Positions 6,540-43,433 of a stretch of 44,446 nucleotides of DNA are shown here, piece by piece (the stretch's first letter is position 1; each line of letters begins with the position of its first letter). Made by a program: the position numbers and the translations under genes. Source of the DNA: a virus. Under the pieces are notes generated by a model that worked only from the letters and a program-made list of their open reading frames with translations, made no database searches and was not told the DNA's origin. The DNA lies in IMG/VR virus record IMGVR_UViG_3300009481_000023, positions 1-44,446 of that record; one strand, given 5' to 3'.

Positions 6540-6540
6540 T

Positions 6541-6657
6541 ATGGTAGTATGGAAATACTGTGAAGTTTGTGGTAAAGTTGTAGATGAGTATCAAAAACGA
6601 TGCTCTGAATGTAGCGCTGAAATAGATTGGGAAGAAAAAGAAGATGATAAACAATAG
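6541..6657 (+). CDS. 38-residue zinc-ribbon microprotein
   Basis: This tiny frame begins one base after the stop of the polymerase N-terminal half and overlaps the exonuclease gene by 14 bases. It encodes a protein with two Cys pairs, YCEVCGK and RCSECSA, 11 residues apart, a textbook zinc-ribbon knuckle arrangement, followed by an acidic tail (DWEEKEDD). AAGGT about ten bases upstream could act as ribosome-binding site. The tight fit between two real genes and the paired Cys motif support it being expressed. It may help join or stabilise the split polymerase, or be a remnant of a zinc-binding domain; both are inference. Confidence 0.65.
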   Translation: MVVWKYCEVCGKVVDEYQKRCSECSAEIDWEEKEDDKQ

Positions 6658-12910: not shown

Positions 12911-12911
12911 T

Positions 12912-14140: not shown

Positions 14141-14499
14141 TATTTACATATGCTAAAATGAAACAACCAGAGCAAGACTATGATAATTTTGAAGGCTGGA
14201 TAAATGTGGATGGACGATCAAGTTTTCAAAATGAGATATATTCTATAGATACTGACATATTTGGTATAGTTCCTAAAGGTCTAGACTTTGCGCACAGTAA
14301 AGTTGTAAAGATGATAGTGGATATATTCCAACAGATTGACGGATTAAAATACCTTGTGTCTGAAGAGGCATATGATTCCAAGAAAGCTTTTTTTATGAAT
14401 AAAAGATTAGCCGACAAAGATGGAAACGGTATACACTTTAACTTTTCAGAAGAAAAAGATGTTGTGACTGCAAAGGGACTGTTTAAATCAGATGGCTAA
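14116..14499 (+). CDS. Hypothetical protein in glycan cassette
   Basis: This 127-residue protein is unrecognised. The gene overlaps the upstream frame by 25 bases and the downstream nucleotidyltransferase by 8, in keeping with the coupled layout of the cassette. The sequence is mixed alpha/beta with aromatic strands (NFEGWINVDGRSSFQNEI) and a C-terminal beta-like part (GIHFNFSEEKDVVTAKGLF). There are no Cys pairs, membrane segments or nucleotide-binding loops. The N-terminal KVVFTYAKMKQPEQDY could start a Rossmann strand. Function unknown; association with sugar transfer is by location only. Confidence 0.5.
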   Translation: MSEHDPKVVFTYAKMKQPEQDYDNFEGWINVDGRSSFQNEIYSIDTDIFGIVPKGLDFAHSKVVKMIVDIFQQIDGLKYLVSEEAYDSKKAFFMNKRLADKDGNGIHFNFSEEKDVVTAKGLFKSDG

Positions 14500-15193
14500 A
14501 CATAAAATAAAAGCAGAGGAAAAGGATACCCTTACTGTTATCATACCTGCAGCGGGAGAGGGTCGTAGAATGAAGAGCTATGGCCCCAAGTCTCTTATCG
14601 AATTAGGTAAAAGCAATATATTGCAAAGACAAATTAGAATAGTAGAAAAAGTTTTAGGATCAGTAGAGTTTATAATAGTAGCAGGATTTGAATGTGATAA
14701 GCTCATGGATTCATGCCCAGAGTACTTCATAAAGCTTGAAAATGAAAATTACTCGATTACGAATGTCTCTAGAAGCCTGTCTATCGCTCTAAGATCAGTC
14801 AAGACCGAAAGAGTGCTGATAATCTATGGCGATCTTGTCTTCAATGAGCAAGCGTTATCAAAAATGGATTTTTCAACTAGCTCTACGTCAGCAAGCCTTG
14901 ACCAAGAAAGGAATAATGAAGTAGGATGCATATTCGATAATGAAAAAAATATAGTAAACATGATGTACGATTTAGAAACAAAATGGAATCAGATAATATA
15001 CCTACAAGGCAGAGAACTAGAAATATTCAAGAAAGAGTGCCAGAACAGAAGCAACAAGAAAAAATTTGGCTTCGAAATAATAAATAAGGTTGTTGATGCT
15101 GGTGGAAAAATAAAATGCATAGTTGACAAATCAATAAGTGTTGTTGACATAGACACGTCCAAGGATCTAATAAGAGCGAATAATATAAAATGA
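14492..15193 (+). CDS. Sugar-phosphate (or choline-phosphate) nucleotidyltransferase
   Basis: This enzyme probably activates a sugar phosphate or related compound with an NTP, making the donor used by the neighbouring transferases. The N-terminus has the signature of the NTP_transferase superfamily: VIIPAAGEGRRMKSYGPKSLIEL, with the G-x-G-x-R-M loop and the PKSL lysine. A metal-binding strand IIYGDLVFN (Asp near residue 110) follows. At 233 residues with no left-handed beta-helix tail it resembles short LicC/RmlA-type enzymes. Which substrate is activated cannot be told. It overlaps both neighbours by a few bases and is the clearest evidence that the cassette makes or uses nucleotide-linked metabolites. 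Confidence 0.8.
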   Translation: MAKHKIKAEEKDTLTVIIPAAGEGRRMKSYGPKSLIELGKSNILQRQIRIVEKVLGSVEFIIVAGFECDKLMDSCPEYFIKLENENYSITNVSRSLSIALRSVKTERVLIIYGDLVFNEQALSKMDFSTSSTSASLDQERNNEVGCIFDNEKNIVNMMYDLETKWNQIIYLQGRELEIFKKECQNRSNKKKFGFEIINKVVDAGGKIKCIVDKSISVVDIDTSKDLIRANNIK

Positions 15194-16008
15194 TTGTTAT
15201 AGAAGAAAGCGGCCCACTATCAAAGATAATAGGCAATACACTTGTAGCATCTAATATAAATGTAATTGGATGGAAAAGTTCTGTAATCCCTCTATATAGA
15301 ATGCTTGAGGACAAAAAACCTGATCTGCTAATATATGGCCCTGAAGCCAGTATACAGGGAATGCAATATATGAAACAGAGGTTCCCATCAACTGTAGTGG
15401 CTTATTTGGGAGATCATCCAGCGGACGAATGCCTGTCTGACATTGTCATTGGAGAATCAGAACTCAGATCATCAATTGATCTTCCCACTAATATATATGA
15501 CATAACAAATGTACTTAGAGGGAATAAAAAGCCATATATGGAGTGTGAGCTGGCAACTTTCACTGAGTCAATTACACAAGCTAAACTAGAATCAAACTCA
15601 GACTTATTCCAAGAGCTTATATCAATCAGAACTAGATTTTTTGGTAGTCAAAAACTAGATACCCATGCATACTTGGGATCAATAACCGATCAGGAGAGGG
15701 CTGATATCGTCAAGTCTTGCAGCATTTATGTCGATATGACAGGAGACTATTGGCACAAATCGGTTATGATGAGAACAGTTCCAATTGTCTTCACTAATGA
15801 TACGTTGCCGGGAGTCAACACCTTTAATGATATAGAAAGTTTGCATAAGGCAATACAGGAGACAAAAAAAGGCAACTATAATATTAAAGAAGCAAGAGAG
15901 TCGATAGTGAATAATAGCGGGTTTAATTTTTGTTACAATCTTTTTTCCGCTTTAGGAGCACAAGAAGCGGCAGCATCAATACTAAAAGCTAAGGAGGAAG
16001 TATCATGA
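15190..16008 (+). CDS. GT-B-like protein in glycan cassette
   Basis: This 272-residue protein starts with a Rossmann-like segment (MIVIEESGPLSKIIGNTLV, then KPDLLIYGPEASIQGMQYMK). The C-terminal half has the layout of a GT-B donor domain: HAYLGSITDQERADIVKSC, then SIYVDMTGDYWHKSVMMRTVPIVF and a final NDIESLHKAIQE helix. The step 'D-x2-K-S-C...V-D-M-T-G' corresponds in position to the surface loop before the donor site of group 1 transferases. Catalytic residues cannot be assigned with confidence. It overlaps the nucleotidyltransferase gene by four bases (ATGA) and the next gene by four. Confidence 0.5.
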   Translation: MIVIEESGPLSKIIGNTLVASNINVIGWKSSVIPLYRMLEDKKPDLLIYGPEASIQGMQYMKQRFPSTVVAYLGDHPADECLSDIVIGESELRSSIDLPTNIYDITNVLRGNKKPYMECELATFTESITQAKLESNSDLFQELISIRTRFFGSQKLDTHAYLGSITDQERADIVKSCSIYVDMTGDYWHKSVMMRTVPIVFTNDTLPGVNTFNDIESLHKAIQETKKGNYNIKEARESIVNNSGFNFCYNLFSALGAQEAAASILKAKEEVS

Positions 16009-28167: not shown

Positions 28168-31100
28168 TTATCTGAATGATGGTTGTTGAGGAGCTGGACT
28201 TGGTGAGTCTAAGGTACTGTTAGTAGGTTGGGAAGAACCCATTCCCGGCATTTCTGCTACCTTAGCTGCAACAGCATCTGCCACAACTGTCTTTATAGCT
28301 TCTAATATATTTCCTTGATCAAGCCTTACATCGACAGCTTGAATTTTCACTCCATCTTTAATCGAAGCAAATGCTGTGGTAAGAGAACTCATAGCAGTGA
28401 CTGCTTCTGGGCCTACAATAGGTGCTTGCCCACCTGCCGCTGCAGGGTCAGTGTACTGCATTCCTCCAACAGAAGGGTTCTTGAAGAAATCGTCCGGGAG
28501 GTAATGGGACATCGACCCAATAGCACCTTCTGCTCTTACCCTTTGTTCTGGAGTCATTCCTCCAGCAGACGGATCAACATAGGAGCTTCCAGCTCTTCCC
28601 GGTGTCTTTCCTCCAGTTACATCAAACGGCTGCTTGCCAAAACCTCCAAATGGATCGGTAACTGGGTTTCCGAACTGGTCAACTTGAGACATTGCTCCCT
28701 CAGTTCCCATGATCTGCCCTTGTGCTTTTTGGCCGGGCATCATACCAGTCTTTATATATTCTTGAACTTGGTCTTTTTTAAGCTTACCCGAGCGAAGCAT
28801 ATTTCTAGCTTGATTTATACGCTCTCTTTTTCCTAGTAATCTTTCCTGAGTATTTTGTAGAGTGGCCTTATCACTATATCTGCCCTGAGCCTCTTTTCCT
28901 TTGTCAGTCAAAGCGCCAGTCATGGGGTCTATTTGTCCAGACTTTAACTGTTGCTGTCTTCTAAACTCTATAGCTGTAGAAACTTCTTGATTCGTAAGCC
29001 TACTACCTAGATAACTGTCTTTCTTCAATACATCAAAGCCAATTTTATCTGGATCGTAGCCCTTAAAGCTTCTTATCTTGCCTTGAGGAATCAAACCTTG
29101 AGCCTCATACGCAGCATTGCCCATCCTACGTTCTGCTTTTGATGCTCCTGCACCACTTGCATCAGTTAGCAATCCAGTTCCCTCAAACTCGCCAGCTTTT
29201 ATAGCGTCCGCTAGTCTAAGCTTAGAGTTACTTATACCAAACCTTGACTCAACTCTACCTACAGGTCTTCCTCCAAGCTCTTTGTTAAGCCTAATCCTTC
29301 TTTCCATTTCAGTTTCATTTTCATTCGCTCTTCCTTTATAAGTAGATTTATACTGAGGTCCGGTATCGGCTAATTGAGAAGTAAGTTCTGGTTGGGCAAG
29401 CCTAGCTTCAGCTTCCGCTTTGTCCTTCTTCGCTTGTTCTAACATAGCTTTTCTTCTGCCTGATACGCTTGCGGCAAAAGTTGTTGTTCTATAAGTTTCA
29501 AGCTCACCAGTAGTTCCACCATCTTTATTTCTTAGGCGACCAGCTGCCTCTTCTCCAAATCCAGCAGCGCCTGTGAGAGAGACAGTTGAGCCTTTTGCTT
29601 TCTCAATATAGGATCTATGAGTAGCCAGATCCTGCCGAAGTTTATCGGATAAGCCTTGTCCTTCAGGTCCAGCCGCTGAAAGTCTCTTAAATATGTCTTC
29701 ATCACTGCCCTTGAGACTTATTCCTCTACTCTTTGCAAATTCAGAGACCTTGCCTCTAGTTTTATTAAGATTATCAAGATGGATATCTGATGTGGCAATG
29801 TTCTGTAAGTGGTCTAGCTCCTCTAAGTCTAAAGAGGAAGCCGTTCCAGTATCCCGCATAGATTGTAGTTGACCACGCCTTTTGTCTCGCGAAGCTCTAT
29901 CTCTATAAGCTGCTGTGTTAGCGTCTCCAGCAATAATTGTTGAGTCAGCTTGGGCTAATTTTTTCCTTGCCTCGTCTCTTTCTATCTTGTCTTTAGCTCT
30001 TTGCTCTATATCATGACGAACACGAACAGCTTCACTTGGACTTTTAGTCGGATCAAATTGTTCCTTAAGTTTTCCATCCTTGTCAGTAAAAGGATCTGGA
30101 AATGCGTCTGATGCAGCTTCCATAGCGAATGGGTCTACATTCTTAATTCCTTTTTCCGTTGATTCCTTGAACATTCCCTCAGTCTGTACTCCGAGATCCT
30201 TTAAGCTTTTCTTGACTGCCGCCGGTTCGATAGTGGGAGCTATCGGCAATGCAATAGCGTCATGAATAGCGGCACCAATAGCACTTGCTTGAGAGCTTTT
30301 CCTCATCTTGCCGGGTTCAATATTCTGGAAGCCACCGCCACCTAGCCCTTTAAGCTTCTTTATTTTTTCTTTATCAAGCTCTGAGCCCTGAAGTGTTTTC
30401 ATTACTTTTTTAAGTTCTTTAGGAGCAGGTTTTCTCACAGGGTCTATGGAGTTCTTCTCTATATCGTCCAATGTCACATTTGAAACGTCTACTATCAGCT
30501 CTTCTCTTGTTTTTGGTTTCCCGCGCGTTGGCCCAGCAACAGGGGCTGTCGTGAACAGATTTCCACTAGCAATAGACTCAGCATCTCCTAAAGGCCTTCC
30601 TCCTCTTGTGGCCTTCAATCTTTCATTTTCTGCTTCTATGTTAGCCCTAGCTCTATCTTTAGCTGCCTTTCTATCTGCTTCGTATGCTTCTTCCTGAGCC
30701 TTAATAGCATCTTTCTGGGTGCTCGCAAGTTTGGCTCTAATGCCAAGTAATCTCTTTTCTTCTTTCTCTATGGCGTTAAAGTCGCTTGCACTCGTAACCA
30801 GATTCTTTAATTCATCAAGCCTTTCAAGTTCCCCAGATATTCCTGTGTCTATTTTATCTCTTACGTTTTGATCCGATAAATCAGCACCTGCAAAACTAGC
30901 ACCAAAGTTACCGAATGCTGTAGTTCCTCTGTTGCCAGCCAAGGTGACTTCTCTGGCTGTTCCTCCACGAGCAAGCATATCATTGACTTCTGTTCCCATG
31001 AATTCAGACACATCTCTCTTCTCGACACTGTCCGCTTTTCTAAGTTCTTCTGCAGAAAATGCTGCAAGCTGCATTTGGATTCTTAAATCATCAACAGCAG

Positions 31101-34100
31101 TATTCAGCCTATCCATCTCAGTAACGGCCTGCTTGCGAACTCTATCTTCCATAACATTCAGAGCATCTTTCTGCTGCTGACCTATTGCTGCCGCTTCGTC
31201 TTTCTTTCTATCTATAGCAGCTCCTTGATCTACTCCAGCAAAGAAGCCTTGTGCATTTATTCCTAATTGCCCCAGACCTTGTATTGCTACTCCTCTTGCC
31301 TGAACTGACGCTTGTGTTTTGAGCTTGGCTATTTCTTCCTGAGTCTTGCCTCCCGCAGTCAATATAGGATCAAGCTGACCGCTGAGAAGTTTGCTCATCT
31401 GCCCAGTTGTTAATTCTCCGCCTGTTTCTAGCAACTCAACAGCACGGAAATCATCCCTAATCGCCTTTCTATCTTCAGCAGCACCTTTGAAATCACCTCT
31501 GTTAATTTTCTCTTGAATTCCTTGGAGTCTTTCAAAAGTGCCTTTCAACGAGTCTTGCTCCGCAAGCTGTTTAGATTGCAAGTCTGCTATCTCTGATTCA
31601 ATAGCTGCCAACCTTGTTGTGTCATCAGCTAAAGTACTTAAAGCTCCTGTTGTATCTTCGAGTGCTCCTTTAACTGTTGCTAACTGACCGATAAGCTCTG
31701 TATTGGTTCCCTGTCCGGGCTGAGCAAGTTGAGCCTCTATGCGAGCTTTTTCTTGTTGTAAGCTTGTCTGTCTAGCCTGCAGTTCACCTACATTTGCTGT
31801 AGCTACTCCACCGGCTACGACCCTACCACCTATGCTAACTGCCTGACCTGTTTGTCTAGCTATACTTTGGTTTAAATCAGCCTGAGCTTCAGCTAGTCCG
31901 CCTTTTCTAGTTCCAGTTACTTCTCCAACTCTCTTATCTATGTCGTCTCGTTTTTTATCAAAATCTCTAAGCTTTAACTGCACATCTCTTTGAAGCTTGG
32001 CAATATCCGCTGACCTTTGTGCAATCTCCCTTGCTGCGTCGAACTGAGCTGACAGCTGGTCAATTATTTCCTGTGTAGCTCCTCCAAACTGTTCTACTAT
32101 ATCTCCGGTATTACCAAGAGCAGCTCTAATAGCATCTATCCCGCCTTCTCCTTGTCGCGCTTGTGTTAGAGTAGCCTCCATCTGCTTCATGAATGCATCC
32201 AGCACTGGCCCTTCAGCACCAGCAGCTTGTGCTCTTTCTCTAATAGTGTCAAGCATCTGCTGATTCGTTCCTAACTGCCCACCTCTAGCTGTAACATCTT
32301 CTGTAATAGCGTTTAGAGAGTCCTTCAATACATCAGGTAATGCTGCGGCAAAGCCCGGAACCCCTTCAAGTCCTTCCAGCGTGCCTGATGCTCCAGTCCC
32401 ACCAACTGATTCTATCTCTGCAAATCCAGCCCTTATAGCGTCCGTAACTCCGCCTTGCTCAAGACCCTGTATGTCTAAGTTTTCAAAAGGATTGACAACC
32501 TCATCCAAACTAAAATCAGCTTCACCACTAAGCAGCGAACCTACTCTCTTTTCAGCATTAGAAACAAATACATCGAACGAGTTAAGAGTTTGCTCCATAG
32601 CGTTTGTTAGTTTTTGAAGTGCCGTTACCATGCCATCCATAGCTTTTCCACTGGCTTCCAGTAGATTATTCACAACAGCTTGAGATATTGACTGCTCAGT
32701 CAAAGCCACAGAGTTTGCCATAGCTTGCTGAGTTAATCTGTTAAATTGTCTCTGTACTCCTGAATAGGCTGGGCCTGCTCTTCCTAGTAAGCTATTTCCT
32801 GATGCCAGAGCCTGATTGAATGCATCTATGTCTCCAGACGCTGCAGCTTGTTGTACCCTTTTGATCGCTCCCGATAGAGCTGCCGCATCTTGTTTTCCAA
32901 GTGTTTCTAGAGCTCCTTGAGTTGCCGCAAACAGCTGGTTTCCAAGATCAATACGTATTGTTGCAGCCGCTTTCTTTCCAGCTTCTCCAAGCAGTCCTAA
33001 GTCAAGAGCCTTCTGTATTTCTGTAAAGTTCTTCTGTGCTTTCTTTGGATCACTGGTATCTATTTTACTTAAGAATGCTTGTAATTCTTCGATCTTACCT
33101 TTAGAATCATTAGAAGCAAGTATGATAGTATCTGTTACGCTTCCTAATACATTCGCTAATGCAGCGGCACTTTGTTCTGCTATTTTAGGATCAAAATTCT
33201 TAAGGGCTTCTGCAAATCCTCTACCCTCTATGACAAGCTCGCCTGCTGCTACGTCTTGGTCTATCTCCCTTTGACTCTTTTCTTGACTATCAAACGTCAT
33301 TCCAGCTCTAGACAAGAAGTCCATGATTGGATCTTTACTTCCTGCTCTTTGAAGCAATTCTCTCTGGGAGCCGCTTTCGATAGAGTCTACACCACCACCA
33401 CCTCGAAACGCTCCTCCTGAGAAGAAGCTAAAAATGCTGCTGATGCCTTCACCCACTCGCATGAATTGTGCTCTTTCTGCGTCTCCTCCCATAAAACCAA
33501 CGCCCCTTGCACTCTCAAAGTCGCCGCCCGCAGAGGAAAGCCTATTGAACATTTCAACATTCTTTCTATTGGCCTTGTCAATATCATCAGCGGTTACAAA
33601 TGCATCATTAGCTAGTTTATGAAGAGCTTCTCCTGCTTCTTTTGATGCATCATTAAGACCAGCTATAGCGTCAAATCTTATTTTGTCAGCAGCCGCATTT
33701 GCTTGGCCTATAGCTTTACCAGCAAAAATACCTATTCCACCACCTATCGCTGCTCCTACTGGGCCACCGAGAATGAAACCTAACGCAGCGCCCGCAGAAC
33801 CTCCAGCAACACCTCCTTTAATTGCTCCTCGTTGTCTAGCTCCTTCAGCAGTTTCAAGCCTACTTCCTTTTATCTGTTGAGCACCAATCGTTTCAAGGTT
33901 CTGTACTCCTGTAGCAAATTCAGAAATTGGACCGGCAAGAGCAACTCCAACTGCACCAGCTATGGCAGGACCAAGTGCAGCCATTCCAAATCCAGTTCCT
34001 CTCATCGACATCCTGCCCAAACCTCTTAGCTTGCCGCCTCCCGTTACACTACCTCCTGCTCTTGACAACGAAGTTCCTAAACCTCTTCCGCCAGAAAGAT

Positions 34101-37100
34101 TCTTCCTAAAGATTCCTCTTGATCTTGTTCCAACGCCCGCTTTTTTCGGTCCTCCACCGCCCATACCCATGAACATAGGGGCAGCAAACAATAAAGAAGT
34201 CCCAATACTCATAAGGGCTGAGGTCATTGCTTGACCTTTTTCCTCAACTCCTGCTGCAGTGTCGCTCATAGCATCTATAAGCATAGGGCCGGTCATCGCT
34301 AGCTCCATAGCGATCATCGCGAAGCCCATACCCTTCATGCCTCCCATACCTCCTGCGCCTGCTCCTGCTGCGCCTCGCTTATTGGTAGGAGTCCTTTGCT
34401 TCTTTTGTTGCTGTTGCTGTTTTTTCTGCTGCTGTTGTTGTTGTTTGTTCTGCTTTTGTGATTGCTGCTGCTGTTGCCTTTGTTGTTGCTGCTGTTGCCT
34501 TTGTTGTTGCTGCTGTTGCCTTTGTTGTTGCTGTTGTTTTTGTGGCTGTGCTGCTTGCTGTTGAGCGTTAAGTACCTGCTGCTGAGCAAAAGCATGTCCA
34601 GCTGGTTTGACTGTAGTAGGTGCTAGCTGAAGGCCTGAAGTGGTGACGCCTCCGCCTCGATTGCCTACTCCGATGTTAAGGTTATTTCTTGGAGGTGCTC
34701 CGGGAAGCGGTAATCTGCCTTGTGGGACAGAACCTCGATTGCCTACTCCGATGTTAAGGTTATTTCTTGGAGGCCTTCCGGGAAGCGGTAATCTGCCTTG
34801 TGGGACAGAACCTCGATTGCCTACTCCGATGCTAAGATTGTTTCTTGGAGGTGCTCCGGGAACTGGCCTCTTGACATTCTGCTGTTGAGCACTGAGCTTT
34901 GTTGCTACACGCCCTGTACCAAGAGCACGCATCCTACTTTTTCTAGCCGCTCTTCTGTCTGCCGTGCTTGTTGCGTCTGTGCCGGCAAAAATTCCTCTTC
35001 CAGTTTTTCCACTAACAAACCTACTAGCTGCTGCACTTGCTTCTGCGGGAGTTCCTCCCTTGCGAATTACTGACTCGTATCGCTTTGCGTACAATCTCTC
35101 AAGTTCTCTTGCTGTAGGCTGCTTTCCATAGAAACTTCTACCCTCAGTTACAATCCCACCCTCAGCATAAGCATTAATAGCATTTAGATTTCCATATCCT
35201 ATTCCTTGTGCTGTTTTCTTATCAAATACATATTCTCCGGGAGTTAGTAAAGCAGGGGTATTTCCACTACCGAAGACAGCTCCACCTTTATTAAATGTCT
35301 GAGCGGCTGCTAAATCTTCAAGATCAAATATAACTTGACCGGGAACACCACTTATCGCCTTTCCGAGGAAAGAATTTCTTTGGGTTTTTCCTATCTCGTT
35401 TTTAAGTTCTGTGGGCAAAACAAATTGTGGCCCAAATATTTTGCTTAGTTGAGTCGTATCTCCTGTAGGAATATCAAACCTAATACCGGCCTCTGTTTCT
35501 CCCTCAGCTCTGAGTTGTTGGCTAGCTTGCTTTATAACAGCTTCAAATAGAATTCCTTTAAGTGAGTTTACTGCACCTCCGTCCAGCACTCGCTCAAGAT
35601 CAGTAAATGCCGGAAACTTCATGTCGTCTCCGAGCGCAGCTGTAGCCTTGGAAATCATGCCCGGAAGAGGATCTATAAGTTCGCTGCCAAATGCCTGTCT
35701 AGCGTTTGTACTTATTCCATAGATCCTAGTGTTTAAAGCTTGAATTTTACCGCTTTGAGCCTTGAGTACATTATAGTCTATGGCTTCTTCTCCGGGATTC
35801 TTCTCTGCCAAAGCAATCGCTTGCATAAGTGCAGCGCCCCTAATGCCTGCTCTCCCTTTTGTAAGCGCGCTCTTGCTTACGTTTCTTCCATCAACTTTTG
35901 CCGCCTTTCCTCCTCTTTTTGCTCGGTTTGCTATTTTTTCTGCTAGTTTTACGTCAGCTGGAGTTTTCCCTAATACTTGATTCCCCGCTTCCCTGCGTTT
36001 GAGATCTTTAATTCTATCTCGCTCTTCATTAGTAAATCCAGCAGTTCTTGCTGTCAAAGGACCACCAGTCCTAGCCTCAAATGCTTTTGCTTGTCTTATA
36101 AATTCAGCTCTAAGTTTAGCACCAGATTTGGGATCTTTATCTTCTATTCCAGCTAAGGTAGCGCTTATAAAGTCAGGAGGATTTCCAGCAGACAACAAGC
36201 CAAGACCGATTGGTGTAGTAGGTTTAACCCTACCTACAACGCGGCCTCCCTTATTATAGCCTTTAAGATTGGAAGGACCTATAGATTTAACAGCAGATTT
36301 CCTTAAAACAAACTCTCCGGGAGTTAGCATTGCTGGAACTGTATCTTTATTCCCCGTTCCGGGAACAAGCCCTCCACTAGCAAAGCCCATAATTCCACGA
36401 CGACCTGCTCCTCTGCCTCCTCTGCGTACTATAGGAGTAGCTCCTCCTCCAAAACCTCTAGTCTTGATCGTATTGGTCAATGCAACAATAACCCCCTGAA
36501 GGTTTCTTATTGCTTGAGTAAGATTATTAGTTGCAGTAGTATTGTTGGCAGTTGCCCCAGACAGCTTAGTAACAGCTGTGTTCATTGATTTTACTGCAGT
36601 AGCTAAAGCGTTGGTCGCAGCATTTCCACCTGCGCCTCCTCTTCCTCCGCCTCCGCCTCCTGTTATAGCACTTCCTAATGCGGCACCTGCTCCTCCTGCT
36701 CCTCCTCCTGCTCTAGCAGAACCAAAGAAGCCCTGAAAGAATGAAAATGCCCCTCTAGTAAGTTTGAAAGCTGCTATTTTAGCTAGTATAGGCAATATAG
36801 GAGTAAGAGACTCGGCAACACCAAGGAAAGCGTTGGCAAGCCCTATTGCTGTTTTAGATAAAGCTCTAAAAGTAGAAGATTCAGATATTGTTCTAATTAA
36901 AGCATTGAATCTCTCTCTGACTTTTTCGAACTGCACAATTAGTGGAGTCAAACCTTTGGCGACATCAGATCCTAATCCTTCTACAGCTCCTCTTTGAGCT
37001 TCAGCAAATGCTCTTTCTGCCTTATTGAAGTTTTTAATAGCAGGAATTAACTTACCTATCTGTCTAATTCCACCTAACTCTTCAGTTATCGCAGATAAGG

Positions 37101-38154
37101 TAACAGCATCTCCCTTTTGAACTAATTGATCAAGCCCGGCAGATAGTCTTCGGAACGATTCAAAAAGACCAACAAACTTACCTTGTGTATCAGTAAGCTC
37201 AACTCCCAGTCCTTTAAGTACGTCAATAGTTCCTCTTCTCTGAATACGAGAGAAAATGGTTCTAAGGCCAGTAGCTACCGTTTCAGCAGTTTCCCGAGTA
37301 GTAGATCTAACCGCTGTAAAGATGGCACTAAATTCATTAAGGGCCTCGATGGGTTCTTTGAATTGACCAGCCGATATAGCGAATACACCACCGGCACGTC
37401 TAATAGCAGCGATTAGGTCATCGGACTCAACAGCAAACTTTTTAGATACTCTATTTAGAGAACCAAGAACTTTTTCAGAATCTGAAGCGGCTATACCAAA
37501 CTGATTTAATGCAGCAACAAGACCCTCAGCTGTCTGCTTCATATCTCCAAAAGTAGGAGCTAAAGAAGACCTTGCAACAGCACGGACAGAAGCCTCAACC
37601 TGCTTAATACTTTGACCAGTTTGAGCGAATATTTGTGCCAACTCTAACAACTCATTAGCATCTTTGCCGAATTGCTGAGATAGAGAACTGACGCTATTTT
37701 TTAAATTGCTGAGACCTTTAGCTGTTGATCCAGTAATTTGCTGAAGTTTTACAAGACCTCTCTCAAATTCCAGAGCCTTCGGTACAGCCTCGGAGATTGC
37801 TTGTGTTAGTCTGAAGAATGTTGCGGTAACGATACCGGCAGCAGCAAATCTTTTGAAAGTAAGGGCTGTTTCTTTACCTAGTACTTGCATGGCATTAGCA
37901 GCTCCCTTAGTGCTGTTAGCCATGTTCTTAACGGAAGTAGAAGTAGTCTTAGCGGTATTAGCGAACTTTTGCGAATTCTTATTGGCATTATTTAGCTGAT
38001 TATTAAGATTAGTCAGCTGGCTCTGAACATTGTTAGGTATGTTCAAGCCGATATTCACGTTTATATTCTGAAGCTGAGAGCGTATACTCTTAGTAACGGC
38101 ACTAATATTCTTAGGGCCTTGAAGGATAACGTGTGCGTTTATATTAAATGCCAT
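28168..38154 (-). CDS. Tail tape-measure protein (TP901-type), about 3,330 residues
   Basis: This protein sets tail length and probably passes into the cell with the DNA. Residues about 85-400 show the TP901/PhageMin_Tail core (FERGLVKLQQITGST, LLELAQIFAQTGQS, AIRRAGGVFAISAGQF). Two glycine-rich motifs typical of tape measures follow (GGLVPGTGNKDTVPAMLTPGEF and PALLTPGEYVFDKK). A poly-Gln stretch and 26-residue repeats precede a hydrophobic glycine-zipper zone at about 1270-1490 that could form membrane pores. The rest is long charged coiled coil. I start it at ATG 38154 (MAFNINAHVILQGP); a GTG at 38187 would lie inside the hairpin region. Confidence 0.92.
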   Translation of the reverse strand: MAFNINAHVILQGPKNISAVTKSIRSQLQNINVNIGLNIPNNVQSQLTNLNNQLNNANKNSQKFANTAKTTSTSVKNMANSTKGAANAMQVLGKETALTFKRFAAAGIVTATFFRLTQAISEAVPKALEFERGLVKLQQITGSTAKGLSNLKNSVSSLSQQFGKDANELLELAQIFAQTGQSIKQVEASVRAVARSSLAPTFGDMKQTAEGLVAALNQFGIAASDSEKVLGSLNRVSKKFAVESDDLIAAIRRAGGVFAISAGQFKEPIEALNEFSAIFTAVRSTTRETAETVATGLRTIFSRIQRRGTIDVLKGLGVELTDTQGKFVGLFESFRRLSAGLDQLVQKGDAVTLSAITEELGGIRQIGKLIPAIKNFNKAERAFAEAQRGAVEGLGSDVAKGLTPLIVQFEKVRERFNALIRTISESSTFRALSKTAIGLANAFLGVAESLTPILPILAKIAAFKLTRGAFSFFQGFFGSARAGGGAGGAGAALGSAITGGGGGGRGGAGGNAATNALATAVKSMNTAVTKLSGATANNTTATNNLTQAIRNLQGVIVALTNTIKTRGFGGGATPIVRRGGRGAGRRGIMGFASGGLVPGTGNKDTVPAMLTPGEFVLRKSAVKSIGPSNLKGYNKGGRVVGRVKPTTPIGLGLLSAGNPPDFISATLAGIEDKDPKSGAKLRAEFIRQAKAFEARTGGPLTARTAGFTNEERDRIKDLKRREAGNQVLGKTPADVKLAEKIANRAKRGGKAAKVDGRNVSKSALTKGRAGIRGAALMQAIALAEKNPGEEAIDYNVLKAQSGKIQALNTRIYGISTNARQAFGSELIDPLPGMISKATAALGDDMKFPAFTDLERVLDGGAVNSLKGILFEAVIKQASQQLRAEGETEAGIRFDIPTGDTTQLSKIFGPQFVLPTELKNEIGKTQRNSFLGKAISGVPGQVIFDLEDLAAAQTFNKGGAVFGSGNTPALLTPGEYVFDKKTAQGIGYGNLNAINAYAEGGIVTEGRSFYGKQPTARELERLYAKRYESVIRKGGTPAEASAAASRFVSGKTGRGIFAGTDATSTADRRAARKSRMRALGTGRVATKLSAQQQNVKRPVPGAPPRNNLSIGVGNRGSVPQGRLPLPGRPPRNNLNIGVGNRGSVPQGRLPLPGAPPRNNLNIGVGNRGGGVTTSGLQLAPTTVKPAGHAFAQQQVLNAQQQAAQPQKQQQQQRQQQQQQRQQQQQQRQQQQQSQKQNKQQQQQQKKQQQQQKKQRTPTNKRGAAGAGAGGMGGMKGMGFAMIAMELAMTGPMLIDAMSDTAAGVEEKGQAMTSALMSIGTSLLFAAPMFMGMGGGGPKKAGVGTRSRGIFRKNLSGGRGLGTSLSRAGGSVTGGGKLRGLGRMSMRGTGFGMAALGPAIAGAVGVALAGPISEFATGVQNLETIGAQQIKGSRLETAEGARQRGAIKGGVAGGSAGAALGFILGGPVGAAIGGGIGIFAGKAIGQANAAADKIRFDAIAGLNDASKEAGEALHKLANDAFVTADDIDKANRKNVEMFNRLSSAGGDFESARGVGFMGGDAERAQFMRVGEGISSIFSFFSGGAFRGGGGVDSIESGSQRELLQRAGSKDPIMDFLSRAGMTFDSQEKSQREIDQDVAAGELVIEGRGFAEALKNFDPKIAEQSAAALANVLGSVTDTIILASNDSKGKIEELQAFLSKIDTSDPKKAQKNFTEIQKALDLGLLGEAGKKAAATIRIDLGNQLFAATQGALETLGKQDAAALSGAIKRVQQAAASGDIDAFNQALASGNSLLGRAGPAYSGVQRQFNRLTQQAMANSVALTEQSISQAVVNNLLEASGKAMDGMVTALQKLTNAMEQTLNSFDVFVSNAEKRVGSLLSGEADFSLDEVVNPFENLDIQGLEQGGVTDAIRAGFAEIESVGGTGASGTLEGLEGVPGFAAALPDVLKDSLNAITEDVTARGGQLGTNQQMLDTIRERAQAAGAEGPVLDAFMKQMEATLTQARQGEGGIDAIRAALGNTGDIVEQFGGATQEIIDQLSAQFDAAREIAQRSADIAKLQRDVQLKLRDFDKKRDDIDKRVGEVTGTRKGGLAEAQADLNQSIARQTGQAVSIGGRVVAGGVATANVGELQARQTSLQQEKARIEAQLAQPGQGTNTELIGQLATVKGALEDTTGALSTLADDTTRLAAIESEIADLQSKQLAEQDSLKGTFERLQGIQEKINRGDFKGAAEDRKAIRDDFRAVELLETGGELTTGQMSKLLSGQLDPILTAGGKTQEEIAKLKTQASVQARGVAIQGLGQLGINAQGFFAGVDQGAAIDRKKDEAAAIGQQQKDALNVMEDRVRKQAVTEMDRLNTAVDDLRIQMQLAAFSAEELRKADSVEKRDVSEFMGTEVNDMLARGGTAREVTLAGNRGTTAFGNFGASFAGADLSDQNVRDKIDTGISGELERLDELKNLVTSASDFNAIEKEEKRLLGIRAKLASTQKDAIKAQEEAYEADRKAAKDRARANIEAENERLKATRGGRPLGDAESIASGNLFTTAPVAGPTRGKPKTREELIVDVSNVTLDDIEKNSIDPVRKPAPKELKKVMKTLQGSELDKEKIKKLKGLGGGGFQNIEPGKMRKSSQASAIGAAIHDAIALPIAPTIEPAAVKKSLKDLGVQTEGMFKESTEKGIKNVDPFAMEAASDAFPDPFTDKDGKLKEQFDPTKSPSEAVRVRHDIEQRAKDKIERDEARKKLAQADSTIIAGDANTAAYRDRASRDKRRGQLQSMRDTGTASSLDLEELDHLQNIATSDIHLDNLNKTRGKVSEFAKSRGISLKGSDEDIFKRLSAAGPEGQGLSDKLRQDLATHRSYIEKAKGSTVSLTGAAGFGEEAAGRLRNKDGGTTGELETYRTTTFAASVSGRRKAMLEQAKKDKAEAEARLAQPELTSQLADTGPQYKSTYKGRANENETEMERRIRLNKELGGRPVGRVESRFGISNSKLRLADAIKAGEFEGTGLLTDASGAGASKAERRMGNAAYEAQGLIPQGKIRSFKGYDPDKIGFDVLKKDSYLGSRLTNQEVSTAIEFRRQQQLKSGQIDPMTGALTDKGKEAQGRYSDKATLQNTQERLLGKRERINQARNMLRSGKLKKDQVQEYIKTGMMPGQKAQGQIMGTEGAMSQVDQFGNPVTDPFGGFGKQPFDVTGGKTPGRAGSSYVDPSAGGMTPEQRVRAEGAIGSMSHYLPDDFFKNPSVGGMQYTDPAAAGGQAPIVGPEAVTAMSSLTTAFASIKDGVKIQAVDVRLDQGNILEAIKTVVADAVAAKVAEMPGMGSSQPTNSTLDSPSPAPQQPSFR
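34396..34580 (-). repeat. Poly-glutamine low-complexity tract in tape measure
   Basis: The minus strand reads a Gln-rich run with Arg and Lys interruptions, built from CAA/CAG codons. The core repeats a 21-bp unit (RQQQQQQ) three times. It lies between the 26-residue repeats and the hydrophobic zone. Simple-sequence slippage would change its length, making it a possible tunable flexible linker. Confidence 0.8.
34655..34862 (-). repeat. 78-bp tandem repeat in tape measure
   Basis: Two full units and one partial unit of 78 bp (26 codons) start at 34655, 34733 and 34811. Each encodes NNLNIGVGNRGSVPQGRLPL plus a Pro-Gly-rich joint. The copies are nearly identical at DNA level, so the expansion is recent. 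Proline and glycine content suggests an extended, flexible segment. Confidence 0.85.
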
Positions 38155-38168
38155 AAGTAGCTTTCGTT

Positions 38169-38211
38169 TAAAAAATAAAGCGGCCACAACACAGTATTGC
38201 TATGACCGCTT
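38169..38211 (-). terminator. Hairpin terminator or attenuator before the tape-measure gene
   Basis: On the minus strand an 11-bp stem (AAGCGGTCATA with TGTGGCCGCTT, two G-T wobbles) closes a 12-base loop and is followed by TATTTTTT. It sits in the 69-base gap between the acidic tail-assembly gene and the tape measure. It would stop or reduce transcripts entering the tape measure, a way to keep that product below the tube and chaperone levels. Confidence 0.7.
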
Positions 38212-38223
38212 ACCCATTAAATA

Positions 38224-39195
38224 TTAAGAAGCGTCATCTTCTGGGGGCGACTCTTCTTCTTGCTTATCCGGTTCAGTCTTTTTAGGCCGACCACGGCTCT
38301 TCTTCGCTTTAGGCTTTTCTTCTGATTCAGGCTCATCTTCAGTATCGCCTTCTTCATCTTCTGCCTCAGCTTCTTCTGATTTAGGTTCCTCTTTAATGAC
38401 AGGCTTACCATTGTCATCTAGGAAAGGAGAAAACTCTACGTCCCACTCTCCAGTCTTAGTAACCTTACGACCAGTGATGTCAACAAAAATGTACTCATCA
38501 TCGCCAATCCATTCGATAAGATTTCCATTTTCATCAATATGATTGCCTTCTAAGTCTACTAGCTTACCGTCACCGTCAATAAGTCGATAACTATCGTCAA
38601 CAAACTCAAAGTTTTTAAGAAACTTATTTTCTGGCAATTGAGAATCAACATCTTCCGTTCCTGACATCAGGTAGAAGAATTCAGTTGCGCCTAATACTGC
38701 AACTGGATCATCTTGGTTTGCCATATATTCATCAAAACCTTCTTTGAAGTACAGCTCATCACCTTCATCATACACCAAACAGGATGCAAAAAGGAAGTTG
38801 AATCTAGCTGCATCAGCCTTTCCCTCGCATGTAATTGAGTCTAGATCAGAGCGCCCAGATAGCATAGAAACCATCTCATTCCTAGCTCTAGACATCTCAA
38901 GAGCAATATCCTTTGCTTCAGATAACTTAATGCCACCCTTTTTTAAGGTAAACTCACCATCTATCACCTTTTTTCTGCAATCTTGGTACTGAGCCTCTCT
39001 CTCATCATTCCAAAGCTCTCGTTTTCTTAGTTCATTATCAAGCTGGTCTCTAAGAAGATCCCCATTTTGCAAGGCCTCGTTAAAAACTCTGGCTCGCAAC
39101 TCATTAGCCTGTTTTACATTTTCAACGCTAGGCCTTTTAACTGCGTAGCTTTTTCCTTCATACTCAAAAGGTCTTTTTTCTTTTTTATCTGCCAT
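38224..39195 (-). CDS. Probable tail-assembly protein with acidic, low-complexity C-terminus
   Basis: This 323-residue protein lies directly upstream of the tape measure, where tail-assembly chaperones normally sit. The N-terminal half is helical and charged (YAVKRPSVENVKQANELRARVF, then LSEAKDIALEMSRARNEMVSML). A middle beta part has a DGDGKLVDLEGNHIDENGNL run. The C-terminal 60 residues are Glu- and Lys-rich and include a basic RGRPKK patch resembling an AT-hook. No slippery heptamer frameshift site was identified. The start overlaps the preceding stop by one base (TAATG), with AGGAG about 12 bases upstream. Confidence 0.6.
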   Translation of the reverse strand: MADKKEKRPFEYEGKSYAVKRPSVENVKQANELRARVFNEALQNGDLLRDQLDNELRKRELWNDEREAQYQDCRKKVIDGEFTLKKGGIKLSEAKDIALEMSRARNEMVSMLSGRSDLDSITCEGKADAARFNFLFASCLVYDEGDELYFKEGFDEYMANQDDPVAVLGATEFFYLMSGTEDVDSQLPENKFLKNFEFVDDSYRLIDGDGKLVDLEGNHIDENGNLIEWIGDDEYIFVDITGRKVTKTGEWDVEFSPFLDDNGKPVIKEEPKSEEAEAEDEEGDTEDEPESEEKPKAKKSRGRPKKTEPDKQEEESPPEDDAS

Positions 39196-39515
39196 TATTC
39201 CTGATCTCCTTTGACATAAAAATTAGTTACATATCTGTTCCAAGTTAATGTATATTGGCTGATCTCACTCTGAGCAGCTCTTAAATTAGAATTTCCTAGA
39301 TCTAAAATTTTAGTCCTAGTATCGCTCCATGCTTCTCTCCAATCTTTTTGATCTTCGGAGAGTTGATTATAAGGAAGTCCATGTCCCCATAAAAAACCAA
39401 AGTTATCTTCTATAATTGCTAAAGACCCTATGGTTGTAGTGTTAAATTTTTTTTGTATGTTATTTAATAACCTCTTCTTAGAAAAGTTTTTGTAATCATT
39501 GTTTTTGTCATCCAC
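39195..39515 (-). CDS. Small tail-assembly-associated protein
   Basis: This 106-residue protein is unassigned. It starts with a basic segment (NFSKKRLLNNIQKKFNTTTI), then a aromatic core (IEDNFGFLWGHG) and a helix (WREAWSDTRTKILDLGNSNLR). Ribosome-binding site AGGAG lies nine bases upstream. It overlaps the next gene by one base and is 12 bases after the gene before, so it is part of the tail-assembly set. The IGSLAIIEDNFGFLWGHG core followed by NLRAAQSEI gives the impression of a conserved phage family, but I cannot name it. Confidence 0.65.
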   Translation of the reverse strand: MDDKNNDYKNFSKKRLLNNIQKKFNTTTIGSLAIIEDNFGFLWGHGLPYNQLSEDQKDWREAWSDTRTKILDLGNSNLRAAQSEISQYTLTWNRYVTNFYVKGDQE

Positions 39516-39527
39516 TTTATACTCCTA

Positions 39528-40568
39528 TTACCTATTTGTTACCATTTCTGCTAATTCTTTTTGTAGTCTCATTTTAACATCTGAAAGCTGAGCCTCCCTT
39601 ATTTCTTCCCCTCCTGCTGACCTAACCTCAGTAAGTTTATTCTTTATTGACATCCTTTCACTATAATCATTAAGATCATAGATCTTATTTTTGTCTTCCC
39701 TTGAGCTTACCATAAATATCTCATCGCCCTTTTGTCCTGATATCTTGTCAGCGTTATTCTTAGCTCGATTCTTTTCAGCTTCCTTCCTTTGAACAGCCAT
39801 CCATCCATCAAATGCATCATCGTCTTCAAACACATCGTCTGGGGGAGACTCAGGACTTTGTCTAGCGTTGTCATACATTTTTGAAAACAGAACTACATTT
39901 CTTTGTATAATATTCAGAGATGAAGTCCCAAAATTAAATATGCCACTATTATGACAACTATCCCAATAGCTTTTCCATGGTGTTGTCCTAGCTATCTCTC
40001 TGATATGTGGAATAATCGCGTACTGAGTTATCCAAGCCTCATATGCTTTATCCAAAAGAAGCGCTTCTTGCTCAAAAAACTTTTCTGGATCGTAAATCCT
40101 ATTATTGTTTATATCGTATAGGCTCATTCCTATTGAGAATCTTTCCTTTATAAAATCAAAGTATGCCTCTAGCGTTACATTGTCAAGAGATGTTTTCTTT
40201 TCGTTTGCTTTTGATATCGCCTTCCTTAGCCCTTCCAATCTTCTTTTTAGTGAAGCTTTAGCTTTTGAATTAAAAAAGTTTTTATATATAGAAACCTGTA
40301 TCTCTTCTATTGTTTCTTCGCTTTGTTTAAGTTTCCCTTCTTCTTCATATGTCCATATGCCTCTTGAATTTAATGTTGCCTTCAGCTCCTGCTTTGTTAT
40401 CAGCTGTGAAAAATTAAGATCACTTGAAGCTTCTGACGCTAGAAAATCTGCTAGCGCTATAGTTTCTCTACTAGGATTAAGTATTTTGTATATGCTAGAA
40501 TTGTGTCTAAAAAAAATGACACCGGACAGAATCCTGTCTACAATACTAGCTCTTTCATGGTCAAGCAT
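39528..40568 (-). CDS. Putative tail-assembly protein, function unknown
   Basis: This 346-residue protein is mainly helical. The first 200 residues include charged helices (KASLKRRLEGLRKAISKANEKK); an acidic joint (ESPPDDVFEDDDAFDGWM, about residues 242-259) leads to a basic helix (VQRKEAEKNRAKNNADK) and the segment EIFMVSSREDKNKIYDLND. It carries no clear enzyme motif or membrane segment. The gene starts one base after the actin-like gene's stop and lies before the two small tail-assembly genes. Its position between tube and tape measure points to a chaperone or assembly role, by context. Confidence 0.5.
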   Translation of the reverse strand: MLDHERASIVDRILSGVIFFRHNSSIYKILNPSRETIALADFLASEASSDLNFSQLITKQELKATLNSRGIWTYEEEGKLKQSEETIEEIQVSIYKNFFNSKAKASLKRRLEGLRKAISKANEKKTSLDNVTLEAYFDFIKERFSIGMSLYDINNNRIYDPEKFFEQEALLLDKAYEAWITQYAIIPHIREIARTTPWKSYWDSCHNSGIFNFGTSSLNIIQRNVVLFSKMYDNARQSPESPPDDVFEDDDAFDGWMAVQRKEAEKNRAKNNADKISGQKGDEIFMVSSREDKNKIYDLNDYSERMSIKNKLTEVRSAGGEEIREAQLSDVKMRLQKELAEMVTNR

Positions 40569-40569
40569 G

Positions 40570-41856
40570 TTATTTCAACGACAGCTTTGCTGCTTCATAG
40601 AGACCATTAGAAACCGCAAATAAAGGCTCTTCGGCATGTCTAATTTCTGAGATGGGTACTGGGAAATCTTCCGCTGTTAACTCTCTCAATCTCTCAACAA
40701 ATCCTTGCATCAAAGATGTTCCTCCGGCAATAACGATAGGAAGTTCCATCATGACATTTGGAAGTTTTTTCTTGGGCGTATTTGCATATAGTTCTTTGAA
40801 CTTTTCTACAACATAAGTAAGCAATGCATCATAGTATATTGATATAGCTTTCTGTATTCCATTAGTAGAATCATAGAGACTGAAGTCTCCTTTTTCTTTA
40901 ATAGAAGTAATGACGTTGTGTGTCTCGTCTGTATGCTTTGCAGCATGAGAGTCGATCCAATCTCCACCTCTACTTAGAGAAAATGCGAATACCGGAATTC
41001 CCATAAAAGAGTAAACAATATTGCACATACCAGCACCGAAACTCATACCAATACCTGTATACTGCGTTTCTGCTAATTCCGAATAAACTACTGCTAGCCC
41101 TTCTGTCATTACATTTATATTCTTGTATCCAACCTCTTCAAAGACACCATGAAGAATCTGTTTATGATACTCGACATCAAAGTCAGCATCAATAGGCTCT
41201 GCTGGAACACAATAGTACAGGACATCATTCTTTGCTTTAGGTTTTCCTGCTACAGCCTTTATTAGCTCTGCTACCATAAGATTTGAAACTGGTTCTCTTG
41301 GATTCAAAACGCCTTGAGACATTGGTCGCAAACACTCTTGATGAAATAGACTTGCAAACTTAAATGCATCATCTCCAAGTACATACAGCTGACCATCCAC
41401 TTTTACATAGTGTGCTCCTGCATTTTTTAGCATACTCTCACCAAACTGGTCGGCAGATCCCTCTAAAAATTTTGAAGGGTTCAATTTGAAAAAAGCGTCT
41501 CTGACCTTTCGGAACTTTTTGTTTCCTTCCTCATGCTCAGCACAAGAAATAAAACCTGTTCCAATGTCTACGCCTACAGCTCTCTGCTTAATATTATCGT
41601 TATCGGCCATTACAAAAAAATCGCACCTTTCTGAATTAAAAGATTGTATCTGTTTTCCATCATATGACCAGTTTTCTTCTACTGATATATTAGGAGTAGT
41701 TTCTTCGACCTTACTAATAGAATCATCAATAGCGGGACTAGAATCTTCCGCATTTTTAGAGATATGATGAATAGGTCTTGATTGAGGCACAGAGTCAGCA
41801 TTCACTATCTGCTGCCTATAGCCAGACATCCTGTTAGGTCTGTGTGGGGTTATCAT
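40570..41856 (-). CDS. Actin-like (ParM/MreB/Alp superfamily) ATPase
   Basis: This 428-residue protein belongs to the actin/Hsp70 ATPase superfamily. Counting from TTG 41859, phosphate-1 VGVDIGTGF is at 95-103 (D98), phosphate-2 GMSFGAGMCN at 271-280, and adenosine motif IVIAGGTSLMQGF at 375-387. TEGLAVVYSEL (about 252-262) fits the helix before phosphate-2. Phosphate-2 usually begins with Asp; here it is Ser, so ATP turnover may be unusual. A Ser/Pro-rich N-terminal extension of about 90 residues is probably disordered. The ATG at 41856 has AGGGGA five bases upstream and overlaps the membrane-protein gene by 23 bases. Phage actins position DNA or divide plasmids, so finding one between tail genes is odd. 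Confidence 0.82.
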   Translation of the reverse strand: MITPHRPNRMSGYRQQIVNADSVPQSRPIHHISKNAEDSSPAIDDSISKVEETTPNISVEENWSYDGKQIQSFNSERCDFFVMADNDNIKQRAVGVDIGTGFISCAEHEEGNKKFRKVRDAFFKLNPSKFLEGSADQFGESMLKNAGAHYVKVDGQLYVLGDDAFKFASLFHQECLRPMSQGVLNPREPVSNLMVAELIKAVAGKPKAKNDVLYYCVPAEPIDADFDVEYHKQILHGVFEEVGYKNINVMTEGLAVVYSELAETQYTGIGMSFGAGMCNIVYSFMGIPVFAFSLSRGGDWIDSHAAKHTDETHNVITSIKEKGDFSLYDSTNGIQKAISIYYDALLTYVVEKFKELYANTPKKKLPNVMMELPIVIAGGTSLMQGFVERLRELTAEDFPVPISEIRHAEEPLFAVSNGLYEAAKLSLK

Positions 41857-42115
41857 CAATTTCCCCTATCCTTCTATCTCCAAAAGAAGTCTCTATCTTA
41901 GGCTTCTTATAAATAAATCCTATATCTTCTTTGCTTATTTGTTCAGACTTACTATTAAATATCCTGTCTGACTTGTCCTTTTCTTTTTTCTTCTCTGTTC
42001 CTATATCAGTATACTTTAAAAGCATTTTTAAAGAAAAGAATATTATAAGCAAAGTCCCTATTACTATATTAGCGGTTAGGATACTAGTTTTGGCTAAATA
42101 TTCTATCAAATCCAT
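41834..42115 (-). CDS. Small single-pass membrane protein
   Basis: This 93-residue protein has one clear membrane helix (TANIVIGTLLIIFFSLKML, about residues 13-31) followed by a charged tail of about 60 residues (KKKEKDKSDRIFNSK). With no cleavage site it would be anchored with its tail probably in the cytoplasm (positive residues after the helix). It overlaps the actin-like gene, so the two products may work together, for example tail tethering an actin filament to the membrane. That pairing is inference. The start ATG at 42115 has only a weak upstream site. Confidence 0.62.
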   Translation of the reverse strand: MDLIEYLAKTSILTANIVIGTLLIIFFSLKMLLKYTDIGTEKKKEKDKSDRIFNSKSEQISKEDIGFIYKKPKIETSFGDRRIGEIDDNPTQT

Positions 42116-42242: not shown

Positions 42243-43433
42243 TTAAATAACACCCGTTCCGATGTATAATTCTCTATTGGTCCAGAATGTAGCACCAGCA
42301 CTGTTACCACCATTCCCTGCAACGTCTCCACTGTGCATCACAGTAAAGTCATTGAAGTTAGAATATGAGTAAGTAACGGTTGCGTTACCACCACCAGCGT
42401 CTCCTCCACCATAGGTGACGGATGCTAGCTTATTTTTCTTTCCGAGCCATAGTCTCAGGCCTTCACAAGTAGCAATACGAATAGGTCTTTCATTAAGATT
42501 ACTCTTATTGTTACATGATGCGGCATCGGTACAGTCGTCAAGCGCATTGATCAAGTCACCACTAACAGTTGTAACTTCAAAGTCGCAAGTAACTTCAACA
42601 GGGAATGTAACTGTCTTAGCGTAAGGCAGTTTAGATCCGAGTTCGAAGATGTCTTCACGACCAAGGTCTACAGAAGTAGTGATAGATGATACGCGAGCGT
42701 CAGTTCCTTTGACACCATTGGTAAGAACGCCGGGGATGTCGTTAGGAAGAATAGTGTAGTCACCGCTCTTGTATTGGTCAGTGGCAGTCGTTGCGAATTG
42801 AATATTCTCACGACGGTTAACACCACCATCTCCAATAGGAGCATCATTGTTTCCAGCAAATCCACCGTCTGTACCATCACCACTTGGGTAATAGGTTACA
42901 CCACAGTCAAGAGAGACTGCATTAGTGGCTGTGCCAGATTTCCACACTTTGTAGTTACCAACCATAGTAACGTCTTCACTGAAGTTGTCATCAAGTGGGA
43001 AGTTATACCCAACTGAAGAAACAACAAGACCAGACATTTCTACTACTGAATCAGCATTTGTGTCGGTTTCACCGCAAGATTGGTTATTTGCTTCATTCCA
43101 AATACCCAACTGGACAAAAGATTTAACATTAGCTGCATTTCTGTTAGCCAATGCAGGCGATGATGAAAACATCGAAGTCGCCATACAGTAAAGTGGGATA
43201 TACCCGTCTAGAACTTTCGACATTGTAACTTCAACGTCAGGAGTTCCTTCTACATTTTCATAGATGGAAATCTGACCGAGTTCAAAGACCTGTTCTAGGT
43301 TAAAAGTTGTTGTTATTCCAACAGACTGAACACCATGCGCGACTTTCATCTGCGCCTGATGATTAGGTGCAGTGTCATCTGGTGCCATTGAAATCTGTTG
43401 AATAGCATAATAGACTCTATTATTAACTGCCAT
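42243..43433 (-). CDS. Major tail tube protein
   Basis: This 396-residue protein is the probable main tail tube subunit. The segment HGVQSVGITTTFNLEQVFELGQISIYENVE (about residues 33-62) is followed by VEVTMSKVLDGYIPLY, the beta-hairpin pattern I expect for tube proteins built on a tube-like barrel. A Gly- and Asn-rich middle part (about 180-210) may be an external loop or added domain. Codon choice looks more biased to C-ending, well-used codons than its neighbours, in line with a high copy number. The gene has a strong AGGAG site, a good promoter candidate and its own terminator, so it probably forms its own transcription unit. A sheath or capsid decoration protein is less likely. Confidence 0.72.
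   Translation of the reverse strand: MAVNNRVYYAIQQISMAPDDTAPNHQAQMKVAHGVQSVGITTTFNLEQVFELGQISIYENVEGTPDVEVTMSKVLDGYIPLYCMATSMFSSSPALANRNAANVKSFVQLGIWNEANNQSCGETDTNADSVVEMSGLVVSSVGYNFPLDDNFSEDVTMVGNYKVWKSGTATNAVSLDCGVTYYPSGDGTDGGFAGNNDAPIGDGGVNRRENIQFATTATDQYKSGDYTILPNDIPGVLTNGVKGTDARVSSITTSVDLGREDIFELGSKLPYAKTVTFPVEVTCDFEVTTVSGDLINALDDCTDAASCNNKSNLNERPIRIATCEGLRLWLGKKNKLASVTYGGGDAGGGNATVTYSYSNFNDFTVMHSGDVAGNGGNSAGATFWTNRELYIGTGVI

Follow-up and report, generated by a model that had tools for sequence, protein, structure and literature searches.

The window, a virus record of 44,446 bases, carries a gene for a volactin-family actin and a gene for a single-pass membrane protein of 93 aa. Both lie in a tail operon on the minus strand of its right side. 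Tentatively, and with slightly more doubt than confidence, we propose that the two proteins make up an actin filament tethered to the cell membrane, where it would position virion parts or their assembly. The family and fold of the actin, its linkage to the membrane gene, the invariant motif of the partner and the independence of the tail module from the pair are direct observations. A membrane-tethered organising filament is the most economical reading because a filament-type actin, an obligate anchor, an N-terminal extension and recurring but non-fixed virion surroundings come together.

Family, fold and nucleotide site of the actin

The actin gene (40570-41859, minus strand; 429 aa from a TTG start) was identified by Pfam, an AlphaFold2 model and fold searches. 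Its product matched the Pfam family Volactin (PF25216) with an E value of 6e-78 and 263 bits against a cut-off of 35, and residues 94-424 were aligned to positions 2-321 of the 321-position model. When PF25216 was tested on control genomes, one scored above the cut-off, and Haloferax volcanii was among the three that matched. The second Pfam family, MreB_Mbl, reached 36.6 bits (cut-off 27), far under the Volactin score. By sequence score, the actin is a member of Volactin and not of MreB/Mbl. None of mreC, mreD and rodZ is found next to its gene, the neighbours being tail genes and the gene of the membrane protein. Membership of the ALP/ParM group was not reached (ALP_N, 16.7 bits against a Pfam cut-off of 26.3), and a PHROGs search gave no family and nothing below E 0.1. 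The top sequence match among solved structures was MreB (E 0.004).

The AlphaFold2 model was built from 40 rows and has a mean pLDDT of 85. Residues 59-85 form strands (pLDDT ~80-88) and residues 90-429 the actin fold. Disorder spans residues 1-54 only, so that the disordered N-terminus of 90 residues given in the preliminary description was too long. Among solved folds, those closest to the model are MamK (Z 28.3), BeeR (27.4), MreB (26.1) and F-actin (25.8), with superpositions of 2.8-3.2 Å rmsd across 282-301 residues. The top 50 Foldseek and VIA rows consist of actins, Arps, MreB, MamK and BeeR, plus EutJ. The model thus points to a fold of the filament-forming type, closest to MamK, BeeR and MreB. 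The assignment to the actin-superfamily ATPases, first made from the letters alone, is borne out by the Volactin score and by these matches; Hsp70 and sugar kinases were both missing from the top matches, which were led by filament-type actins, although such an absence is still compatible with kinship to them.

The nucleotide motifs are DIGT (98-101), E253, SFGAGMCN (273-280) and AGGT (378-381). Over 40 phage, bacterial and archaeal members, D98, G100, T101, E253, G275, G277, N280, G379 and G380 are invariant. E253 is aligned with the glutamate of MreB. Where MreB has its phosphate-2 aspartate, the actin has Ser273, as do most Volactin members. The motifs are complete but for this one substitution. 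The invariant columns and the alignment to MreB define the actin core, residues 94-424 (40588..41580, minus strand). The N-terminal motif RMSGYxQ was absent from all other proteins of the related loci.

The membrane partner and its overlap with the actin gene

The membrane protein gene (41834..42115, minus strand) was recognised by its ORF, hydropathy and charge, and by its partnership with the actin in 19 of 19 contigs. Its product has a transmembrane stretch at about residues 11-29, a lysine-rich segment, a variable linker and a C-terminal motif. The charge after the transmembrane stretch is +3 in 25 residues. Since a single hydrophobic stretch is followed by a positively charged segment, the sequence fits an N-out/C-in orientation. 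The same design was found in eleven relatives and then in sixteen sequences. Across the sixteen, P72, I74-G79 and R82-G84 are invariant, and this invariance defines the motif P-K-I-E-T-S-F-G-D-R-R-I-G (residues 72-84; codons at 41864..41902, minus strand; consensus PxIETSFGxxRIG). The remainder of the protein is ~30% identical among relatives, and the identity to the protein of the window is 16-41% in all relatives but one, while the motif is fixed. The motif stands upstream of the overlap with the actin gene and is therefore not imposed by the actin reading frame. PxIETSFGxxRIG is probably an actin-binding tail. The membrane protein had no Pfam or PHROG match above cut-off, its only matches in the phage collection were from Erwinia phage (E 0.2-0.3) and were taken as chance. 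A defence system was rejected as a reading, the PADLOC search giving no match of weight.

Both ORFs were found where the preliminary description had put them, and the two genes overlap by ~23-26 bp. An ATG at 41856, one codon after the TTG at 41859, would give an actin of 428 aa. A putative ribosome-binding site, AGGGG, is located within the membrane gene (41863..41867, minus strand) with a spacing of six bases to this ATG, which is the likelier start. Therefore, the two genes are probably coupled in translation.

Linkage of the pair

A degenerate DNA pattern for IETSFGxxRIG was scanned over 2.9 million IMG/VR viral contigs. It was found in 19 contigs, and in all of them the small protein is encoded directly upstream of an actin of the same clade. 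One of the stretches (L032) stops before the actin; L005, from the same contig, supplied it. At 40% GC, the pattern has a chance rate of 1.6e-11 per position, and no unlinked match was seen where about one was expected, assuming that IMG/VR holds ~4e10 bases. An apparent absence of the partner in L012 was rejected as an artefact of ORF picking, as the contig of L012 is among the 19 with the motif protein. The linkage of actin and membrane gene is obligatory; it had been set as a test in relatives and held in every motif-bearing contig. The closest sister actins, L053 and L054, come without the motif partner, and L053 begins at a contig end. All of the relatives are metagenomic fragments with mechanical ORF calls. 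Their actins are 70-89% identical in differing surroundings, which fits a protein constrained on many of its faces.

Genomic surroundings

Upstream of the pair lies a protein of 396 aa (42243..43433, minus strand), a conserved neighbour in related tail loci and putative tail tube. Downstream lies a protein of 346 aa (39528..40568, minus strand), whose gene directly follows the tube gene in modules without the pair. The tube gene and the small genes at 39195-40568 had no significant Pfam or PHROG match and are named by position. The tape measure protein (28168..38187, minus strand; 3339 aa) was recognised by PhageMin_Tail (3e-22) and PHROG 4211 (9e-28). The placement in a tail module is thus confirmed by family matches for the tape measure and by position only for the tube and the small genes. 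The tape measure contains a long Q-rich stretch, and its length implies a very long tail. On the left of the window there is a set of DnaB, Toprim and PolIII-alpha genes, in which DNA polymerase III alpha is divided between one gene for the PHP/NTPase part and another for the finger part (4647-8955), with an exonuclease gene between them. A glycosyltransferase, an NTP-transferase and small genes of no named family (9422-16008) stand between the replication and the tail genes.

The pair is found between the tube gene and the gene of the 39528 type in the window, in L002-L005 and in L207 (contig of L030). It comes after a DNA-metabolism operon in L006 and L013. In L007, L008 and L010 it lies ahead of an ERCC4 nuclease, a head maturation protease and a terminase (families from L008), the last two following 2-3 kb after the pair in L008. 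In L012, rIIA/rIIB are ~2-5 kb upstream of it. Some pairs have non-virion surroundings with sugar-nucleotide, aldolase or rII neighbours. A protein of 879 aa with the carbohydrate-binding module CBM_5_12 is encoded near the pair of L006 (L006:8411-11050). In the tree, the pair-bearing actins are one clade (SH-aLRT 97) with L053 and L054 as sisters, and the tail-located actins form one subclade (support 97). In the closest relatives beyond this subclade, the pair is located elsewhere than in the tail module.

With the conserved gene 43496, 57 related tail loci were fetched, and 49 contained the tube gene and the next gene. The pair stands between the two in 5 of the 49. In the other 44 it is absent, and the distance from tube to next gene is 24-350 bp. 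Of 30 contigs with tails of this kind, which may be incomplete, 27 showed no detectable volactin. One of the remaining three has the same pair elsewhere, and in two a volactin of family C follows another small transmembrane protein. Therefore, the tail module is independent of the pair. The pair, which in close relatives lies near head genes or elsewhere, is accordingly an accessory cassette. As its position varies, a general role in organising the infected cell seems more likely than one in tail building.

A looser link with the virion persists. The N-terminal extensions of three actins (L007:459-680, L008:4833-5050, L010:4779-4990) match a zinc loop in a protein of ~175 aa and are homologous to it (blastp in a small database, E values as low as 1e-8); the loop has the pattern CxNC...S.Y..GGPxPF..G..CPxC.GxG. 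In the related tail modules, the gene of the ~175-aa protein is the second one upstream of gene 43496; the protein had been considered as an actin, and this was rejected. The top nine PDB matches of its AlphaFold2 model (pLDDT 76) are all phage neck or connector chains, each weak one by one (E 0.02-0.26), and its BFVD matches include head-tail adaptors. We read it from the model as a neck protein. The common zinc loop suggests that the actin and the neck-like protein would dock on one partner.

The wider volactin family

A broader query covered the best 80 of 220 viral stretches and the best 80 of 353 bacterial and archaeal ones. A conserved ~400-aa gene comes directly after the actin gene in 28 of the ~63 distant phage loci (nine sequence families) among the matches listed. 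Behind the ~400-aa gene, 20 of these listed loci have an FmdB-like zinc ribbon and 22 a tail sheath (PHROG 2839, 5e-35 in L071), and 11 have Neck1-like genes upstream (PHROG 5, 4e-9 in L104). A place between neck and sheath genes is therefore a repeated one for distant phage volactins. In another phage family, with 17 loci among the matches listed, the actin gene adjoins that of a head maturation protease (8e-43), and 12 of the 17 also contain a terminase.

Of the 60 archaeal loci among the matches listed (L130-L195), 55 have a gene for a DUF7139 (PF23600) membrane protein immediately ahead of the volactin gene. From this position, DUF7139 is a candidate membrane partner of archaeal volactin. 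The partner in the window is not DUF7139, having no Pfam match above cut-off and another size and motif. Small transmembrane proteins are also encoded upstream of phage family-C volactins, and a membrane protein gene just ahead of the actin gene thus recurs in the family, in favour of the proposed anchor. Among the bacterial volactins listed (L119-L129, L153), several lie in apparent gas-vesicle clusters; in L124, the one bacterial locus tested, the neighbour is GvpL/GvpF (1.5e-63).

The proteins just upstream of phage volactins (L053-L114, L329, L330) have a loosely common C-terminal tail with the elements DP or YVP, SHI and LxxLKxxK. An HMM made from 29 tails was run on 9,243 ORF C-termini with E up to 0.1. 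Outside the training loci, 28 of its matches were genes upstream of a volactin and one was a downstream gene; four more were taken, from their position and sequence, as upstream partners missed by the ORF rules. As many of the phage matches are full-length homologues of the training set, independent support comes from the archaeal and bacterial matches, which are weak (E 0.0007-0.1). The membrane proteins of the clade of the window (clade B) had no significant match to the tail HMMs (E 0.6-8), and their motif could not be equated with the tails of other volactin partners.

Volactins may form a modular actin system of wide distribution: the tail of an upstream adaptor would bind the actin, the other end of the adaptor would pick the cargo, and phages would use the system to place head-tail intermediates at the membrane. 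We consider this possible but rather doubtful. In it, the cargo end would be a membrane anchor in the window and in archaea; huge phages would use virion-module proteins, and bacteria gas-vesicle-cluster proteins.

Proposed function and alternatives

We propose that the two genes are one accessory cassette in a bacterial virus. The volactin-type actin would polymerise. The one-pass inner-membrane protein would bind it with the cytoplasmic tail PxIETSFGxxRIG and thereby tie filaments or filament tips to the membrane. The variable N-terminal extension of the actin would be the cargo side. Late in infection, the filament would hold or move neck/tail or capsid intermediates, or the assembly site, relative to the membrane. 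The preliminary description had hinted at anchoring to the membrane, and this is still the natural reading because of the filament-type fold and the tight linkage to a membrane gene, although both anchoring and polymerisation are deduced from them. The link to the virion is looser. It consists of the neck/sheath and head-protease neighbourhoods in distant phages and of the zinc loop in three actins, and the pair may owe its gene position to late expression only. The volactin known to form dynamic filaments is that of Haloferax; the filament tips touch the membrane, and its binding factors were as yet unknown to its discoverers (PMC10869688). Our literature search on phage volactin, tail actin and DUF7139 found no paper.

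What the filament places at the membrane might instead be phage DNA or the site of replication, the tail position being a matter of hitch-hiking in a late operon. The best studied phage actin, AlpC with AlpA of prophage CGP3, positions DNA via an adaptor (PMC4446434), and the pairs of L006 and L013 come after DNA-metabolism operons. However, the partner is a membrane protein without a Pfam or PHROG match above cut-off, and the placement in virion modules recurs across distant families. We judge this reading unlikely. A somewhat smaller chance is given to remodelling or blocking of the host cytoskeleton or envelope, for instance by copolymerisation with a host actin or by altered shape or growth. 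Haloferax volactin influences cell shape (PMC10869688), the cassette shares its accessory, mobile nature with host-takeover genes, and the pair of L012 stands ~2 kb after rIIB. On the other hand, the actin of the window is at most ~43% identical to cellular volactins among the matches listed, and remodelling leaves the zinc loop of the neck protein unexplained.

In PilM-PilN of type IV pili, the one-pass inner-membrane protein has an invariant short motif that binds an actin-like ATPase. PilM is FtsA-like and is not known to form filaments alone. The pair could by analogy be a non-filamentous, membrane-tethered and ATP-driven factor of neck/tail assembly, since a short linear motif, a one-pass membrane protein and an actin-like ATPase make the same design, and neck/sheath genes are neighbours in distant phages. 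This is improbable, as the volactin fold is nearest to filament formers and related tail modules mostly do without the pair. Least likely is a need for the pair in tail assembly, at which the preliminary description had hinted. The position between the tube and tape-measure genes in the window and five relatives speaks for it; the 44 pair-free modules and the pairs outside tail modules largely refute it, and a tail-specific function was rejected as a general rule.

If the membrane-anchored filament is true, it would be an unusual phage actin, of the volactin class, with its own membrane anchor, tied to virion parts by gene neighbourhood and by the zinc loop, and likely to act on virions or assembly sites. 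A testable, proposed binding motif of 13 residues has been named, and the candidate membrane partner of archaeal volactin is a by-product.

Comparison with known systems

The phage cytoskeletons known so far are mostly PhuZ tubulin and DNA-handling ParM-like actins. PhuZ of the nucleus-forming jumbo phages is likewise a phage-encoded cytoskeleton that organises the infected cell. In contrast, it is a tubulin and is encoded without a membrane anchor gene of the type in the window. PilM-PilN differs in that the motif of PilN is at the N-terminus, whereas that of the partner in the window is near the C-terminus. MreB with RodZ/MreC, and MamK, belong to the same fold class (Z 26-28) and are membrane-linked actin filaments, but their identity to the actin of the window is 14-21%, their partner is another one, and the window is free of cell-wall and magnetosome genes. 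AlpC/AlpA of the Corynebacterium prophage CGP3 is similar as a phage-encoded actin with an adaptor gene alongside. It is described as ParMRS-like, its genes are early and its filaments reach the membrane (PMC4446434, PMC5539076). However, AlpA binds DNA, while the pair of the window combines a membrane adaptor with a volactin-family actin. Volactin of Haloferax volcanii (VolA, HVO_2015) belongs to the same Pfam family, and the archaeal genes likewise have a membrane protein upstream, DUF7139. Unlike archaeal volactin, the actin of the window is borne by a phage, has an N-terminal extension and lies among virion genes, and its one-pass partner has no detected kinship to DUF7139.
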